Below, in pieces: positions 2,295 to 23,375 of a stretch of 23,375 nt of DNA. Numbering within the stretch: the first letter of the stretch is position 1; each line of letters starts with the position of its first letter. The notes beneath the pieces were generated by a model. It was not told the DNA's origin, ran no database searches, and saw only the letters and a list, made by a program, of their open reading frames with translations. The DNA is taken from the IMG/VR virus record IMGVR_UViG_3300046003_003610, positions 1 to 23,375 of that record; one strand, written 5' to 3'. The stretch comes from a virus. The position numbers and the translations under genes were made by a program.

Positions 2295-2789
2295 ATGAAT
2301 TTAGACGCTTTTAGAAAAGTAATTAGAGAAGAAGTAAAAAAAGCTATTCAAGAAGAAATGAGAGAAGTTCTACTTGAAGCAGTTAAATCGGCTAGTGCCC
2401 CAAAATCTTTTGAGAATAATAGCCCTACACTAATTCATACTGAAAATCAAACAAAACCAAAATTTTCAGAAATAATTGCTGAACAAAAACAATATAAACC
2501 TCAACCTCTAGTATCTACAGGTAATCCTATATTAGATATATTAAATGAAACTGCTCAAGCAGGTGAATGGAGAACCTTAAATGGAGGTGATTATAATGCA
2601 TCTGATGCAGTAGGTTGGGCAGGAGGTGCTCCAGGTATGATGGGTGGTTCTAATACCCCTGTAGTAGCAACAGTAGATGAAATGCTTAAATCTCAAGGCC
2701 CTGTACGTGATATAAATGATGTAAGGATAGATGTTGTTCCTGATTTTACAGGCTTAATGAGTAAATTAAAAGAAAACGGTAAATTATAA
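2295..2789 (+). CDS. Small virion-associated protein with N-terminal IREE-type helix
   Basis: A 164-residue protein of unrecognised family. Residues 1-30 form a strongly charged amphipathic helix (LDAFRKVIREEVKKAIQEEM) ending in LLEA. The core VIREEV matches the N-terminal signature of the proteins at 20016, 21151, 21749 and 23197. A disordered Ser/Pro/Gln-rich linker (about 33-70) follows. Then comes a more ordered segment with GEWRTLNGGDYNASDAVGWA, a Gly/Met turn and the C-terminal FTGLMSKLKENGKL. It is preceded by an ATATTTATA motif and overlaps the gp25 start by one base (TAATG), so it appears to lead the baseplate-wedge cluster. A role as a minor virion or assembly protein is inferred from context only. 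Confidence 0.6.
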   Translation: MNLDAFRKVIREEVKKAIQEEMREVLLEAVKSASAPKSFENNSPTLIHTENQTKPKFSEIIAEQKQYKPQPLVSTGNPILDILNETAQAGEWRTLNGGDYNASDAVGWAGGAPGMMGGSNTPVVATVDEMLKSQGPVRDINDVRIDVVPDFTGLMSKLKENGKL

Positions 2790-3202
2790 TGGCTTATAAT
2801 ATAATTAATATTAATCCTTTAGATCTATCTCCTAGTAAAGGAGTAGGAATTCAAATTCCATTTAATGGAACAACTGGATTAAATATTACCTATACAACAA
2901 AAGATGCTATTAAATCTAATATATTCAATTTCTTCCTTACAGGTAGAAAAGAAAGAGTAATGAACCCTACATTTGGTTCAGGAATTAGAGAACAAATATT
3001 TGAACAAATTACTCAAGGTACATCTCAAAATATAGAAGATATAATAAAATTTGGGATAAATGATTACTTTCCTCAAATACAAATAAACAATTTATCAGTT
3101 AATACGTCGCCTGATCAAAATACAATTCAAGTTTATTTTAGTTATTCTATAAACAATACTAACATACAAGACGAAATTTTAATAAATTTCAATAATGGCT
3201 AA
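2789..3202 (+). CDS. gp25: Baseplate wedge protein, gp25/GPW family
   Basis: A 137-residue protein with the size and pattern of the T4 gp25 / P2 gpW baseplate family. The diagnostic segment is at residues 52-72, where GRKERVMNPTFGSGIRE runs into QIFE. This corresponds to the family's conserved glycine-arginine-glutamate/proline/glycine loop leading into a helix ending in Phe-Glu. Downstream is the usual helix-beta-beta region (DIIKFGINDYFPQIQI, then NTIQVYFSYSINNT). In T4, gp25 belongs to the wedge complex beside gp6 and gp53 and anchors the sheath-like end of the wedge. Here the gene is entered through a TAATG overlap and shares its last 8 bases with the gp6-like gene, as expected for subunits made together. 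Confidence 0.92.
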   Translation: MAYNIININPLDLSPSKGVGIQIPFNGTTGLNITYTTKDAIKSNIFNFFLTGRKERVMNPTFGSGIREQIFEQITQGTSQNIEDIIKFGINDYFPQIQINNLSVNTSPDQNTIQVYFSYSINNTNIQDEILINFNNG

Positions 3203-17162: not shown

Positions 17163-17600
17163 ATGTGGTTATATAAAAATAAAGAAATAAAAGAGTTAAC
17201 TGACATGCCTGAAAATACCTTTGGCTATATCTATGAAATAACTCATTTACCAACAGGTAGAAAATACCTAGGTAAAAAACAATTAATATCAGTTCAAAAG
17301 AAAGCTTTAGGTAAAAAAGAATTAGCTTTAATTACTGATAAAAGATCTTCTAAGAAAAAAACAATTATTAAAGAAACTGATTGGAAAACCTACTATGGGT
17401 CACAAGAAGATGTAAAACAATTAGTTAAAGATAGTGACCCTAAAGACTTTAAACGAGAGATACTTATGTTTGTTTCTAATAAAAAATTATTAACTTACTA
17501 TGAAGATAAATACCTTTACATAAATGAAGTAATAGAACCAGGTTCAAATTACTTCAATAGTAATGTTTCTGGTAGATTTTTTAAGAAAGATTTCATATAA
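17163..17600 (+). CDS. Divergent GIY-YIG-type protein (putative nuclease)
   Basis: A 145-residue protein. Residues 20-39 give FGYIYEITHLPTGRKYLGKK, in which Y22-I-Y24 and Y35-L-G37 match the GIY and YIG motifs. Further elements are WKTYYGSQ (74-81), FKREIL (96-101) and YYEDKYLY (112-119), where E114 is a candidate metal ligand, and a final YFNSNVSGRFF. This layout, with YYGS and REIL blocks, fits small GIY-YIG-like proteins often annotated in T-even-type phages as Seg-like homing endonucleases. A 25-residue Lys-rich insert separates the YIG and YYGS blocks. No DNA-binding extension of a homing enzyme is obvious, so a host- or phage-DNA nicking role is equally possible. The start is the first ATG after the hairpin gap; an alternative is M15. 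Confidence 0.65.
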   Translation: MWLYKNKEIKELTDMPENTFGYIYEITHLPTGRKYLGKKQLISVQKKALGKKELALITDKRSSKKKTIIKETDWKTYYGSQEDVKQLVKDSDPKDFKREILMFVSNKKLLTYYEDKYLYINEVIEPGSNYFNSNVSGRFFKKDFI

Positions 17601-19550: not shown

Positions 19551-20015
19551 ATGAGAATAATAAATCCTAAACCAAAAAAACAAAAAATTCCAGTTAAAAT
19601 AACTAAAGTTGATAAAGATGCCTTTGAATATAGAGGAGGACCTATATTACATGAAGGATTTACTCCTCAAAAAGCTCCATTAATTAAAAAGTTTGTTGAT
19701 TATACTTGTAGTAGATTAAATATAGATGAACCTAATATTATAATAATAAATTCACCTGCTTACTCCCAACAGAATAAAAGTTTTGGAGGTTATATGCCAT
19801 CTGAACAAAAAATACTTTGTGTAGTACATAATAGAAATATGGCTGATATTTTAAGAACACTAGCTCATGAATTAGTACATCATATGCAAAACGGAAAAGA
19901 TGAATTAAACCAAGAATCAGGTGGAGATGGTTCACCAACAGAAAATGAAGCTAATGCAATGGCAGGAGTAATAATGAGAGAATTTGGAAGAGAAAACCCA
20001 GAAATATTTGAATAG
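19551..20015 (+). CDS. HExxH zinc metallopeptidase-like protein
   Basis: A 154-residue protein. H106-E107-L-V-H110 (AHELVHHMQ) is a canonical HExxH zinc motif preceded by a helix (MADILRTL). E131 or E133 in PTENEANAMAG, 20-odd residues downstream, is a good third ligand of the gluzincin kind. The N-terminal 40 residues are Lys/Pro-rich (PKPKKQKIPVKITKVDK) and may be flexible. The metallopeptidase core resembles ImmA/IrrE- or SprT-like minimal domains. It starts after a palindromic promoter-like motif. Its TAG stop, the only TAG among the genes here, is followed at once by the next ATG. Possible jobs are processing of a phage or host protein or release of a host repressor. No signal peptide is visible, so a cytoplasmic or virion-internal place is likely. 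Confidence 0.72.
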   Translation: MRIINPKPKKQKIPVKITKVDKDAFEYRGGPILHEGFTPQKAPLIKKFVDYTCSRLNIDEPNIIIINSPAYSQQNKSFGGYMPSEQKILCVVHNRNMADILRTLAHELVHHMQNGKDELNQESGGDGSPTENEANAMAGVIMREFGRENPEIFE

Positions 20016-20552
20016 ATGATATCAATAAAAGAGTTGTTTAAAGAAGAGTTATCTAAAGCTTACACTATCTATTGTGACATGGATGGGGTACTTTGTGATT
20101 TTGAAGCCCGCTTTGAACATTTTACTGGTCTATCACCAGATCAATATAGAGCAAAAGCTCAAAAAGAATACGGTGATAAAAAAGTAGATAAGATGTTTTG
20201 GGATGTAATTGATCATCAAGTAGGAATGAGATTTTGGAGAGGAATGCCTTGGATGCCTGAGGGTAAAGCCTTATGGGATTATATAAAACCTTATAAACCT
20301 ACCTTACTTACAGCACCTTCATATCATAATTCAAGTACAGAAGGTAAAACATCATGGGTTGAAGACCATATATCAGGAACACCAATAATATTTAAACAAG
20401 CTAAACAAAAAGCAGATTTAGCAGGCCCAAATAAAATTCTTATAGATGATCGGGAAGATACTATTATGAGTTGGAAAGCTAAAAATGGTATTGGAATCTT
20501 ATATAAAAACACAGAACAAGCCATAAACGAATTAAAACAATTAGGAATATAA
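20016..20552 (+). CDS. HAD-family 5'(3')-deoxyribonucleotidase-like protein with N-terminal tag
   Basis: A 178-residue protein. The HAD motif I is Y-C-D21-M-D23-G-V-L-C-D28-F, motif II is the Thr at about 99 in PTLLTAPS, and motif IV is LIDDRED with D144 and D145. This matches the NT5C-like phage nucleotidases that remove phosphate from dNMPs and help tune nucleotide pools. Lysines in FKQAKQKAD are candidates for motif III. The first 15 residues (MISIKELFKEELSKA) are not part of the HAD fold and resemble the tag shared with the proteins at 2295, 21151, 21749 and 23197. The ATG follows the metallopeptidase stop directly, with no gap. Confidence 0.8.
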   Translation: MISIKELFKEELSKAYTIYCDMDGVLCDFEARFEHFTGLSPDQYRAKAQKEYGDKKVDKMFWDVIDHQVGMRFWRGMPWMPEGKALWDYIKPYKPTLLTAPSYHNSSTEGKTSWVEDHISGTPIIFKQAKQKADLAGPNKILIDDREDTIMSWKAKNGIGILYKNTEQAINELKQLGI

Positions 20553-20555
20553 GTT

Positions 20556-21128
20556 ATGTCAACACAATTAAATAGAGAATTCTCTGAAAGAGATATTCAA
20601 AGAATGCGTAACATCATTGGTAAAAAAACTAGTGAGGGAACAAGAATTCAAGCTGGTTATAGTAAAAATCAAATTACTCACACTGAAGGTGATACATGGG
20701 AAGAAAACGGTAAAATCTGGACTATTCACAATGGTATTAAACAAACTGTCACCAAACATGATGCTTTAAAAGCCATGGTTGAATTTCCACTTACTTGCCC
20801 ATGTTGTTCTAAACCAATGAAAAGTAACATATTAAATAGAAAAATGTATAACATACATGGCACCTGTTTTGATTGTGTCATTGAAATGGAAACAAAACTT
20901 CGAATAGAAGGTAAATATGATGCTTATGTTAAAGAAATGTTAAATAATAATAAAAATACTTCTTTAGATGACGCTGAACAAATGTTTGATGAATATTTTA
21001 ATAGCAAAAAAGAAACATATGTTACCGAGGCAGGTGACATAGAAAAATGGGATGGTGGTAGCATTGATCCTGAATATATAAAAATGGTCAAAGCAAACAT
21101 AAAACGTCTAAGAGAAACAGAGATATAA
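20556..21128 (+). CDS. Four-cysteine (zinc-ribbon-like) phage protein, unknown function
   Basis: A 190-residue protein. C81-P-C-C84 (LTCPCCSKPMK) and C104-F-D-C107 (HGTCFDCVIEMETKL) form a probable zinc-ribbon or treble-clef site. The N-terminal part (about 45-65) reads GDTWEENGKIWTIHNGIKQT, a beta-hairpin-like block. I have an impression of this EE-G-x-x-W-T-I-x-N-G-I-K-Q arrangement plus CPxCxKPM in other marine T4-like phage proteins of unknown role. The C-terminal third is charged helix. It follows the nucleotidase after 3 bases, and its TAA is embedded in the next TATAAATATTTATA palindrome. A nucleic-acid- or protein-binding role is inferred from the zinc site only. Confidence 0.65.
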   Translation: MSTQLNREFSERDIQRMRNIIGKKTSEGTRIQAGYSKNQITHTEGDTWEENGKIWTIHNGIKQTVTKHDALKAMVEFPLTCPCCSKPMKSNILNRKMYNIHGTCFDCVIEMETKLRIEGKYDAYVKEMLNNNKNTSLDDAEQMFDEYFNSKKETYVTEAGDIEKWDGGSIDPEYIKMVKANIKRLRETEI

Positions 21129-21137
21129 ATATTTATA
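21124..21137. promoter_or_regulatory. TATAAATATTTATA palindrome before gene 21151
   Basis: The second perfect 14-base copy. It overlaps the stop codon (TAA, 21126-21128) of the four-cysteine gene and ends 13 bases before the ATG at 21151. The bases between (CCAAAACCAAACC) are free of T and form an A/C-rich leader. It probably starts the transcript for the tagged small genes that follow. Confidence 0.5.
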
Positions 21138-21150
21138 CCAAAACCAAACC

Positions 21151-21759
21151 ATGAAAAAATCATTTTTAAAAAACATAATTAAAGAAAGCATAACTGATTA
21201 TTTATCAGAATTAAATACAATTAATGAAGATCCTAGTGTACCTGAAGATTCAACCGATATGGCTTTGGATATGATGAAAAATGGATTACCTACCCAAACT
21301 AAAGAATCATTAACATCCACTCCAGGCATGATGTTTGAGGATAAAGTAACTAAAGATGATAATATTTATTTAGTTAAAAAAGCAATGAATGAGTCTACTG
21401 AAAAAGATTTAGTTGAGAAAAAACTATTATTAGATTTAATAGGTGAAGGATTATATGAAGGTGCTTATTTAAATGAAGCACAAGCTATGAATGCTGCTAA
21501 AAAATCTCTTAAAGGTAGAGATACGCAAATAAAAGAAAATGTTAAGAAAGGTCAATCTAAAATTGGTGGATTAGAAAAACAAGTAGCTGATTTAAAATCC
21601 CAAATGCAAAAATTAATTGATAATCCTGAAATGAGAGGCGAATTATCAAGTTATACTGCTAAATTAGAAAAAACTGAACAAGTATTAATTAAATTAAAAT
21701 CAGCTTTAGAAAAATCTGCTCCTAAAAAAGAAAAGAAAGAAACCAAAGATGATAAATAA
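21151..21759 (+). CDS. Tagged coiled-coil protein, probable minor virion or assembly protein
   Basis: A 202-residue protein with no family I recognise. It begins MKKSFLKNIIKESITDYLSE, a basic/hydrophobic helix matching the tag of 23197 (MDKSDLRNIIKETIEHIFQE) nearly residue for residue. LSE-L and INE-D shortly after are candidate sites of T4-type prohead-protease cleavage (L/I-x-E), if such an enzyme exists here. The middle is Ala/Lys helix (about 100-135). Residues about 130-195 form a heptad coiled coil (GGLEKQVADLKSQMQKLID, then LEKTEQVLIKLKSALEK). The last 12 residues are almost all Lys/Glu/Asp. The gene has its own palindromic promoter-like motif and overlaps the next gene by 11 bases. 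Confidence 0.6.
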   Translation: MKKSFLKNIIKESITDYLSELNTINEDPSVPEDSTDMALDMMKNGLPTQTKESLTSTPGMMFEDKVTKDDNIYLVKKAMNESTEKDLVEKKLLLDLIGEGLYEGAYLNEAQAMNAAKKSLKGRDTQIKENVKKGQSKIGGLEKQVADLKSQMQKLIDNPEMRGELSSYTAKLEKTEQVLIKLKSALEKSAPKKEKKETKDDK

Positions 21760-23095
21760 TTCTAAAGATAAATTACAATCTTACCTTTATAAGTTAATTA
21801 AAGAGGAACTTAAAGATGGTGAAGATGATCAAACTAAAAAATACGCTGAGTATGATATAGTATTGATTCCTGAAAATATTAATAAGGCTATTGAAGCTTT
21901 ATCTAATGCAAAAAATTATGGACCATACTCCCAAAATCTAAGAGATCCTAAAATAATTGAAAAAGTATTTGGACCTAATACTCCAGCAACTAAAGGTAGA
22001 ATAGCCAAAGAAACTTGGAATAAATTCTCAGAAACCGAAAAACGTGCTAAAGTATTAGATATTAAATCTAGAGCATCTCAAGATTTTGCTTCAGTTGAAA
22101 CTCAATTACAACCTCAATTCCAAACTTGGTCTAAAGAAAATGAAGGTGATTTTATTGATTTTTTAATATCACTTCCTGGAGATAAATTACCTATGAATTT
22201 TTACGGTAAGTATGGTGCTAATTTCTTTTTAACTAAGACACCTGAAAATCTTAAAAAATATAGTGGTGTGATGTCTAAAGGTGTTCACTACACTGCTGAT
22301 GAAGATGAATTAACTTTTCCTCAAAATTGGAACCCATTCAAATCTAAAGATTATCTTAAAAAAGTATTAAAACTTATAATGGATAATGCTGGACTTGAAT
22401 ATGTTTTTTCTGAACAAGAATCAACAGAACAACCTAAAGAAAAAGCAACTAGTATTACCTCACCTGATAGACCAGATCAAATAAATTTTGTTAAAACATT
22501 TACTGACGATGAAGGTGTACCTGATGAAGAATTAGCAGCTAAATTCAGAAAATTAATACCAGATGAATTCAAATTTAAAACTAAAGTTGAAAATGGTAAA
22601 ATTACTGTAAGTGATATATCAGCATCTGATAAAAAAGCTTTAATTAATGCTTCAATTAAATTTCAAGAAAAATATAATAACATCTACGAAAACAAACATA
22701 CAATGAAAGACCAATTAAAATCCCAATTAACTTCTATGATTAAGGAAGTTCTTTTAGAAAAAAAATTAACTCCTGCTCAACTTAAAAAAAGAAATAAAGA
22801 AGCAGAAGTTATTAAAAAGAAAAATCCTAAAATGGATAAAGGTGAAGCTTTTGCAATTGCTACTAAACATTTAAAAGAAGGAGAAGATAATATGTCAATG
22901 GACGAACTTATGCAACAATTTGTTGATGCATTAGATATTGAAGATGATAATGAAGCTAATCAAATCATAAAAAATGTTGGCATCGCTATAAAAAATAAAG
23001 TAAAAAATAAAATAAAAGGAAAATTTAACCAAGCTGCTAATTATGCTAAAGATAAATTAACTAAATATGCTGATAATTTAGAAGAAAATGTCTAA
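21749..23095 (+). CDS. Large tagged protein with a second internal tag (possible gene fusion)
   Basis: A 448-residue protein of unknown family. The N-terminus KDKLQSYLYKLIKEELKDGE carries the LIKEEL tag core. Residues about 35-310 form a globular region (IPENINKAIEALSNAKNYGP, then WSKENEGDFIDFLISLPGDK). At M319 (base 22703) the tag appears again inside the chain: MKDQLKSQLTSMIKEVLLEK. After it come a Lys-rich KKRNKEAEVIKKKNPKMDKG block with FAIATKHLKEG, then an acidic stretch and a basic C-terminus. The second half looks like a complete tagged gene joined in frame. It starts inside the preceding gene (ATGATAAATAA) and shares its last 8 bases with the tiny basic gene. A virion-internal role is inferred from the tag alone. 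Confidence 0.6.
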   Translation: MINNSKDKLQSYLYKLIKEELKDGEDDQTKKYAEYDIVLIPENINKAIEALSNAKNYGPYSQNLRDPKIIEKVFGPNTPATKGRIAKETWNKFSETEKRAKVLDIKSRASQDFASVETQLQPQFQTWSKENEGDFIDFLISLPGDKLPMNFYGKYGANFFLTKTPENLKKYSGVMSKGVHYTADEDELTFPQNWNPFKSKDYLKKVLKLIMDNAGLEYVFSEQESTEQPKEKATSITSPDRPDQINFVKTFTDDEGVPDEELAAKFRKLIPDEFKFKTKVENGKITVSDISASDKKALINASIKFQEKYNNIYENKHTMKDQLKSQLTSMIKEVLLEKKLTPAQLKKRNKEAEVIKKKNPKMDKGEAFAIATKHLKEGEDNMSMDELMQQFVDALDIEDDNEANQIIKNVGIAIKNKVKNKIKGKFNQAANYAKDKLTKYADNLEENV

Positions 23096-23195
23096 ATCAA
23101 GAAAACCAGGTAAACAAAAACCTAACCATGGTAACACAAAGAAAAGACAAAACGTTATCAAAAACAACGAACAAATCTTAGCCAAATACAAATAA
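23088..23195 (+). CDS. Tiny highly basic protein, 35 residues
   Basis: A complete ATG-to-TAA frame that overlaps the end of the preceding gene by 8 bases (ATGTCTAA), the same junction type as gp25/gp6. The product is MSKSRKPGKQKPNHGN, then TKKRQNVIKNNEQILAKYK. It has 9 Lys and 2 Arg in 35 residues against one Glu, with Gly/Pro/Asn in the first half and a short helix at the end. The next ATG (23197) follows one base after its stop, so it sits exactly between two tagged genes. It could be a protamine-like, DNA- or RNA-binding peptide packaged with the genome. Small size makes the call less certain, but spacing at both ends is exactly as in true genes of this genome. Confidence 0.55.
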   Translation: MSKSRKPGKQKPNHGNTKKRQNVIKNNEQILAKYK

Positions 23196-23196
23196 A

Positions 23197-23375
23197 ATGG
23201 ATAAATCAGATTTAAGAAATATAATTAAAGAAACTATAGAACATATCTTCCAAGAAAGTAATGTATCATCTCTTCAAGAGAACATTTTATTGACTGAAGA
23301 TAAAGTTTCTAAAAATCTTCAATACCATTTAGATAAAGAAATTCCATTACATGAGAATGCTTTTAGATATGGTAC
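23197..23375 (+). CDS. Tagged protein, 5' fragment (continues beyond the window)
   Basis: An open frame of ~59 residues runs off the right edge. It begins MDKSDLRNIIKETIEHIFQE, the clearest copy of the shared tag together with 21151, followed by SNVSSLQENILLTEDKVSKN and LQYHLDKEIPLHENAFRYG. FQE-S and LQE-N lie just after the tag and would suit L/I-x-E prohead-protease cleavage, if present. The LQYHLDKEIPLHENAFRYG block is reminiscent of an uncharacterised, head-associated class of environmental T4-like phage proteins that I recall, without a firm name. One base separates it from the tiny basic gene. Its function cannot be told from the visible part. Confidence 0.6.
   Translation, partial: MDKSDLRNIIKETIEHIFQESNVSSLQENILLTEDKVSKNLQYHLDKEIPLHENAFRYG

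Follow-up and report, generated by a model that had tools for sequence, protein, structure and literature searches.

Short N-terminal leaders resembling the T4 capsid-targeting peptide on unrelated proteins of aquatic T4-type phages

Tagged segments in the window

The window, the whole stretch of DNA analyzed in this work (23,375 bases, virus record IMGVR_UViG_3300046003_003610), was a fragment of a T4-type myovirus. It carried T4-type baseplate genes identified by PHROG matches (gp25-like at 2789 and gp6-like at 3195), followed by tail-fiber-like genes, a primase, an exonuclease and a cluster with the tagged open reading frames (ORFs). The nearest isolate (gp6 protein, 50%) was Flavobacterium phage immuto, and near relatives from IMG/VR (contigs of 168, 173, 166, 111 and 111 kb) were analyzed whole or nearly whole. 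Assignment to the T4-type myoviruses was based on a T4-like gene order (gp25, gp6, portal gp20, protease gp21, scaffold gp22, capsid gp23), and was supported by the baseplate proteins in the window and by the portal-protease-scaffold-capsid order in the relatives and in immuto. The head genes lay outside the 23-kb window, and the gp21-family protease was therefore seen only in relatives. The window also encoded a GIY-YIG SegE-type endonuclease (17163-17600; Pfam E=1.3e-25); both its PHROG match and the gene in the corresponding position of immuto were labeled NAD synthetase, probably a misannotation.

The first-pass annotation had described a common core in six segments, all of which were found: five begin at the Met of an ORF, and the sixth is internal to ORF 21749-23095. 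The leader MISIKELFKEELSKA (20016..20060, + strand) opened ORF 20016-20552, a HAD/NT5C nucleotidase whose orthologues carried different leaders or lacked one, with YTIYCDMDGV as the start of the fold. The body behind it (20061..20552, + strand) was a HAD 5'(3')-deoxyribonucleotidase-like domain (PHROG 2643, E=2.9e-27), with a Pfam NT5C match below the curated cut-off (E=3.3e-4) and HAD folds as its PDB matches (TM 0.45-0.56). The leader MKKSFLKNIIKESITDYLSEL of ORF 21151-21759 (21151..21213, + strand), holding the sites I-K-E and L-S-E, was kept in six relatives (G001, G002, G003, G004, G005 and G008) and preceded a coiled-coil, Lys/Glu-rich body. ORF 21749-23095, for which tblastn gave no match among isolate phages, started with MINNSKDKLQSYLYKLIKEELKD (21749..21817, + strand), and its LYKLIKE/LYTLIKE motif was kept in orthologues.

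The internal copy in the same ORF, MKDQLKSQLTSMIKEVLLEK (22703..22762, + strand; residues 319-338), lay at a module boundary, began at its own Met (residue 319), held the sites I-K-E and L-L-E, and preceded a KLTPAQLKKRNKEAEVIKKKNPKMDKGEAFAIATKHL module matching PHROG 2065 (function unknown); its equivalent was also internal in the G001, G002 and G004 orthologues. The leader MDKSDLRNIIKETIEHIFQESNVSSLQENIL (23197..23289, + strand), with repeated L/I-x-E sites, belonged to an ORF running off the window end, with full-length orthologues in G001 (117759), G002 (82244) and G003 (28121). The last segment, MNLDAFRKVIREEVKKAIQEEMREVLLE (2295..2378, + strand), opened ORF 2295-2789 in the baseplate cluster, beside the gp25 homologue. 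This ORF had relatives at 47 loci, and immuto and G018 had the tag in the same position; the role of the tag is uncertain, and it may simply be a similar helix on a component of the baseplate. MKKSFLKNIIKE and MENFDLKKFLVE are leader peptides from this work.

An L-H-E site (19647..19655, + strand) was also present before the zinc-metallopeptidase-like domain of ORF 19551-20015, a domain with a weak Peptidase_M76 match below the cut-off. The same boundary carried L-x-E in relatives (PILHEGF in G002, KFLNEGW in G005), and this is possibly a processing site between modules.

The pattern [hydrophobic]xx[hydrophobic][LIVFM][KR]E was found at the N-termini (first 31 residues) of 4 of the 21 complete window ORFs, versus 2 of 189 stretches of 31 residues taken from protein interiors (p=0.001, odds ratio 22); ORF 23197, which is open-ended, gave a fifth match, beyond these four. 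The same leaders were kept at the N-termini of orthologues in near relatives, and N-terminal enrichment of the core was also seen in eight relatives. T4, used as the positive control, recovered IPII, IPIII, gp68 and gp24. Cyanophage S-PM2, by contrast, has gp21, yet showed no N-terminal enrichment.

Leader code and its spread over unrelated proteins

The ten-residue T4 leader MKTYQEFIAE (the capsid-targeting sequence, CTS) sends internal proteins into the prohead core; in IPIII, residues 4 and 7 serve targeting and residues 8 and 10 processing, and gp21 cuts after L/I-x-E (PMC9026906). The N-terminal core shared by the segments fitted h-x-x-h-[L/I]-x-E, which is the T4 register: LKNIIKE, LYKLIKE, LRNIIKE, FRKVIRE, LKKFLVE and LAGIITE aligned with YQEFIAE in a single register. 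Hydrophobic residues at the targeting positions (4 and 7), L or I at position 8 and E at position 10 were thus all present, except in the 20016 leader, which has F-K-E (F at P3) in the standard register but also holds a shifted I4-K5-E6. Candidate L/I/F-x-E sites had been placed just after the tag in the first-pass annotation; the site in fact lies within it, as the closing I-K/R-E, as in T4.

T4 Alt is a packaged ADP-ribosyltransferase. Its start, MELITELFDED, also has such an early site (I4-T5-E6), and matches the nucleotidase leader MISIKELFKEE without gaps at I4, E6, L7, F8 and E10, although the body here is a HAD nucleotidase and not an ADP-ribosyltransferase.

Two leader strings were scanned against IMG/VR (ORFs of at least 50 residues for the first). 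Among the matches listed, 78 of 79 to the type-A string LKxIIKEE[L/F] and 82 of 88 to the type-B string F[DN]LKK[FY]LxE were N-terminal, five of the six internal type-B copies beginning at their own Met. The 160 bodies behind types A, B and D (type D is described below) formed 121 sequence clusters, of which 106 had a single member, again among the matches listed. A short N-terminal leader on otherwise unrelated proteins, proposed earlier from the window alone, was therefore borne out. When the 21 window ORFs were ranked with a scoring matrix whose whole training set was 58 type-A leaders from other contigs, the top three were ORFs 21749, 2295 and 21151, in that order, and the HAD ORF came sixth. 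Because the Glu was required in the type-A and type-B patterns, an independent test of the cleavage site comes only from type D and the nucleotidase leaders.

Terminase large subunits (e.g. L581, L598, L613 and L619) start with LKDIIKEEF, a type-A-like helix; the terminase large subunit is not an internal head protein, and this counts against capsid targeting.

The nucleotidase leaders gave one such independent test. Orthologues of the nucleotidase started directly at MYTIYCDMDGV, carried unrelated leaders (including MIKLTDILKEIEEQK, MISLSNLFEEEKPKIN and MYKLTDLYKQLKEEAQ) or were fused to other domains. L/I-x-E was present in 26 of 30 distinct leaders, a value reached in none of 2000 shuffles (mean 14.3, maximum 22). 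In the AlphaFold2 model the body had pLDDT above 90, and the leader, at about 54, formed a separate low-confidence helix. Against a strict rule, G018 encoded a leaderless nucleotidase copy inside the same gene cluster.

Similarity of the tags could also be convergence among AT-rich, Lys/Glu-rich N-termini, their low-complexity helices being alike by chance. The motif is indeed short and made of common residues, and plain L/I-x-E in the first 31 residues was only mildly enriched, being too common to inform. This explanation is nevertheless barely credible: the strings were almost absent from protein interiors in the viral collection (among the matches listed), the leaders were kept between orthologues, and the control phages without gp21, phi4:1 and phiST, showed no significant enrichment.

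Scaffold C-terminus, prohead protease and gene cluster

In the near relatives, the scaffold gene lies between those of the protease and the major capsid protein, and the last residues of its product are RMQKLAGII or closely similar. A scan for RMQKLAGI gave, among the matches listed, 66 protein C-termini, and the major capsid gene was directly downstream in 61 of the 62 with enough sequence. Fifteen further copies were listed elsewhere: 13 were N-terminal leaders (type D), which mostly read M(K)KQILSEEFxRMQKLAGIITE; of the other two, L370 was near an ORF start without an upstream ATG and L372 was internal. L/I-x-E was found no more than 6 residues away in all 15 of these copies (11% expected, p=3e-15), versus 1 of the 66 C-termini (L354, GIIKEN), among the matches listed, suggesting that the scaffold terminus was turned into a cleavable leader, cleavage itself being inferred. 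T4 offers a weaker parallel, its scaffold starting MLKEQLIAEA and its leader ending QEFIAEA.

The G001-G005 scaffolds (e.g. G002 96870-97823) also contained an internal helix, EITV[DE][DE]LKDI[IV]R[DE]V, with acidic stretches on either side and resembling the type-A leader, often with Asp replacing the P1 Glu. With an independent matrix it ranked high only in G005 (2nd of 198) and G018 (7th of 221), so its likeness to type A is only suggestive. A more general proposal is that cargo is loaded by scaffold mimicry, leaders copying or imitating segments of the phage's own scaffold plus a cleavable Glu, so that the product of any gene acquiring one joins the virion and T4-type phages of aquatic bacteria come to hold a large and exchangeable set of head enzymes; this could as readily prove wrong as right.

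RMQKLAGIIK also ended proteins with a different preceding sequence (SINESF or MNESF) at L351, L353 and L408; no capsid gene was seen downstream of L408, the only one with enough sequence. These ends are possibly C-terminal targeting tags on other proteins.

A prohead-protease gene, whose absence would have told against capsid targeting, was present in the near relatives. Of 20 related records, 16 held PF03420 (the gp21 family), among them all near relatives that were read whole (G001-G005 and G008), and immuto had it too; the four records without it were contigs of 28 to 91 kb whose head-gene coverage was not checked. The gene lay between portal and scaffold, the T4 order. Among the matches listed, tagged contigs of about 50 kb or more encoded PF03420 more often than contigs picked by neutral 15-mers (21/30 vs. 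6/20, p=0.006), as did those of at least 90 kb (13/15 vs. 6/12, p=0.049).

Tagged genes were concentrated 8-25 kb upstream of the protease (55 of 175 genes vs. 80 of 1295 elsewhere, p=7e-20, eight related genomes). The genomes are related, and this does not amount to eight independent tests; genome by genome, p was below 0.02 in seven of the eight and 0.023 in the eighth. The tag was thus gathered in one late-gene cluster rather than being found equally on cytosolic proteins: none of the named replication and nucleotide enzymes of immuto had such a leader, and its epimerase-like protein matched the pattern, but inside its fold.

The leaders might instead be docking helices for another assembly (baseplate, neck or a cytoplasmic replication complex), L/I-x-E then being merely incidental to an amphipathic helix with many I, L, K and E residues. 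The 2295 gene, located in the baseplate cluster in the relatives too, and the type-A-like helices at terminase N-termini fit this explanation, but we consider it improbable: tagged genes are gathered in one cluster, leaders of unlike sequence (A, B, D and T4) have common processing positions, the scaffold C-terminus gains L/I-x-E only on other proteins (among the matches listed), and 57 of 68 leaders had I or L at P3, versus 109 of 174 internal matches.

The reading we prefer, with a probability of roughly 0.8, is that the tags are capsid-targeting leaders of the T4 kind, which imitate the scaffold core, are removed by gp21 and serve a more varied cargo than T4 has. While the prohead is being assembled, the leader, as a short amphipathic helix hydrophobic at P7 and P4, would dock onto the scaffold core (proposed because the leader resembles segments of the scaffold protein); the activated gp21-family protease would cut after the Glu of the L/I-x-E closing the leader, and the body freed inside the head would stay with the DNA and be injected when the next cell is infected. 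All four steps (docking, cleavage, packaging, injection) are inferred only, and a literature search restricted to open-licence papers found neither virion proteomics or N-terminal sequencing for these phages nor any description of the literal leader strings or of such leaders in this phage group. The first-pass proposal of capsid targeting was supported by the protease in relatives, the late-gene cluster and the match to the T4 code, and needed correction as to the position of the site and the doubtful 2295 tag; its scope proved wider than the single tag proposed, since leaders fell into several classes, and one class was a copy of the scaffold C-terminus.

Cargo and known systems

The recognizable tagged bodies included the nucleotidase, a nucleotidyltransferase (CTP_transf_like), Zeta_toxin-type P-loop kinases and the zinc-metallopeptidase-like domain. 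Most tagged bodies gave no Pfam match, and several were small, Lys-rich or Glu-rich, and without enzyme match. The latter would suit cargo that enters the prohead via its leader but acts while the head is assembled or the genome packaged (by filling the core or condensing DNA), without being injected to act in the new host. This possibility is unlikely, though still to be reckoned with; nucleotidase, nucleotidyltransferase and kinase cargo suggest action in the cell, and T4 internal proteins are injected (PMC12373910).

Internal leader copies lay at module boundaries at 22703 in the window and at 84313 in G002, and the G008 relative of the latter had the leader at its N-terminus. Judged from these positions in sequence, some tagged proteins may be cut into several pieces.

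As with the T4 CTS of IPI, IPII and IPIII, the capsid-targeting leaders proposed here are short N-terminal peptides on non-homologous proteins, with hydrophobic P7 and P4, L/I at P3, E at P1 and a gp21-family protease encoded. Unlike T4, there were several leader classes instead of one, one of them the scaffold C-terminus, and a broader cargo with recognizable enzymes; packaging has not been shown here, and the carriers are distant T4 relatives whose nearest isolate infects Flavobacterium. In the giant phages phiKZ and SPN3US, which also have many internal proteins, head-protein propeptides offer a gp21-like protease redundant sites at which it cuts after Glu (PMC9026906), but the phiKZ site is S/A-x-E and not L/I-x-E.

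Because the leaders resemble the T4 head-loading label, this aquatic virus group probably carries enzymes in its heads that are injected with the DNA, although packaging was not shown. Head cargo of T4-type phages has so far been recognized mainly by the single T-even leader. A general leader code would allow the virion cargo of a very large group of uncultured viruses to be predicted from sequence, assign a likely location to many unknown proteins and point to the scaffold termini as the leader's binding partner; it also suggests that enzyme sets are delivered at the moment of infection, and adds to the leaders that could be used to load phage heads with proteins.

In three different phages, one of them pelagiphage HTVC008M, a short L/I-x-E leader preceded a Zeta_toxin/AAA_33 P-loop kinase (L209:3417-4217, L229:1360-2112 and L263:11562-12224). 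Proteins starting with YHFT...SIKSIL or WHLTT...SAIEII (L193:1236-2234, equal to G002 77236-78234, and MelJY01 60276, L251:3276-3926) resembled ADP-ribosyltransferase-like folds at these starts, without a Pfam match there, and in G002 this region lay upstream of a metallopeptidase domain; they are possibly an analogue of T4 Alt.
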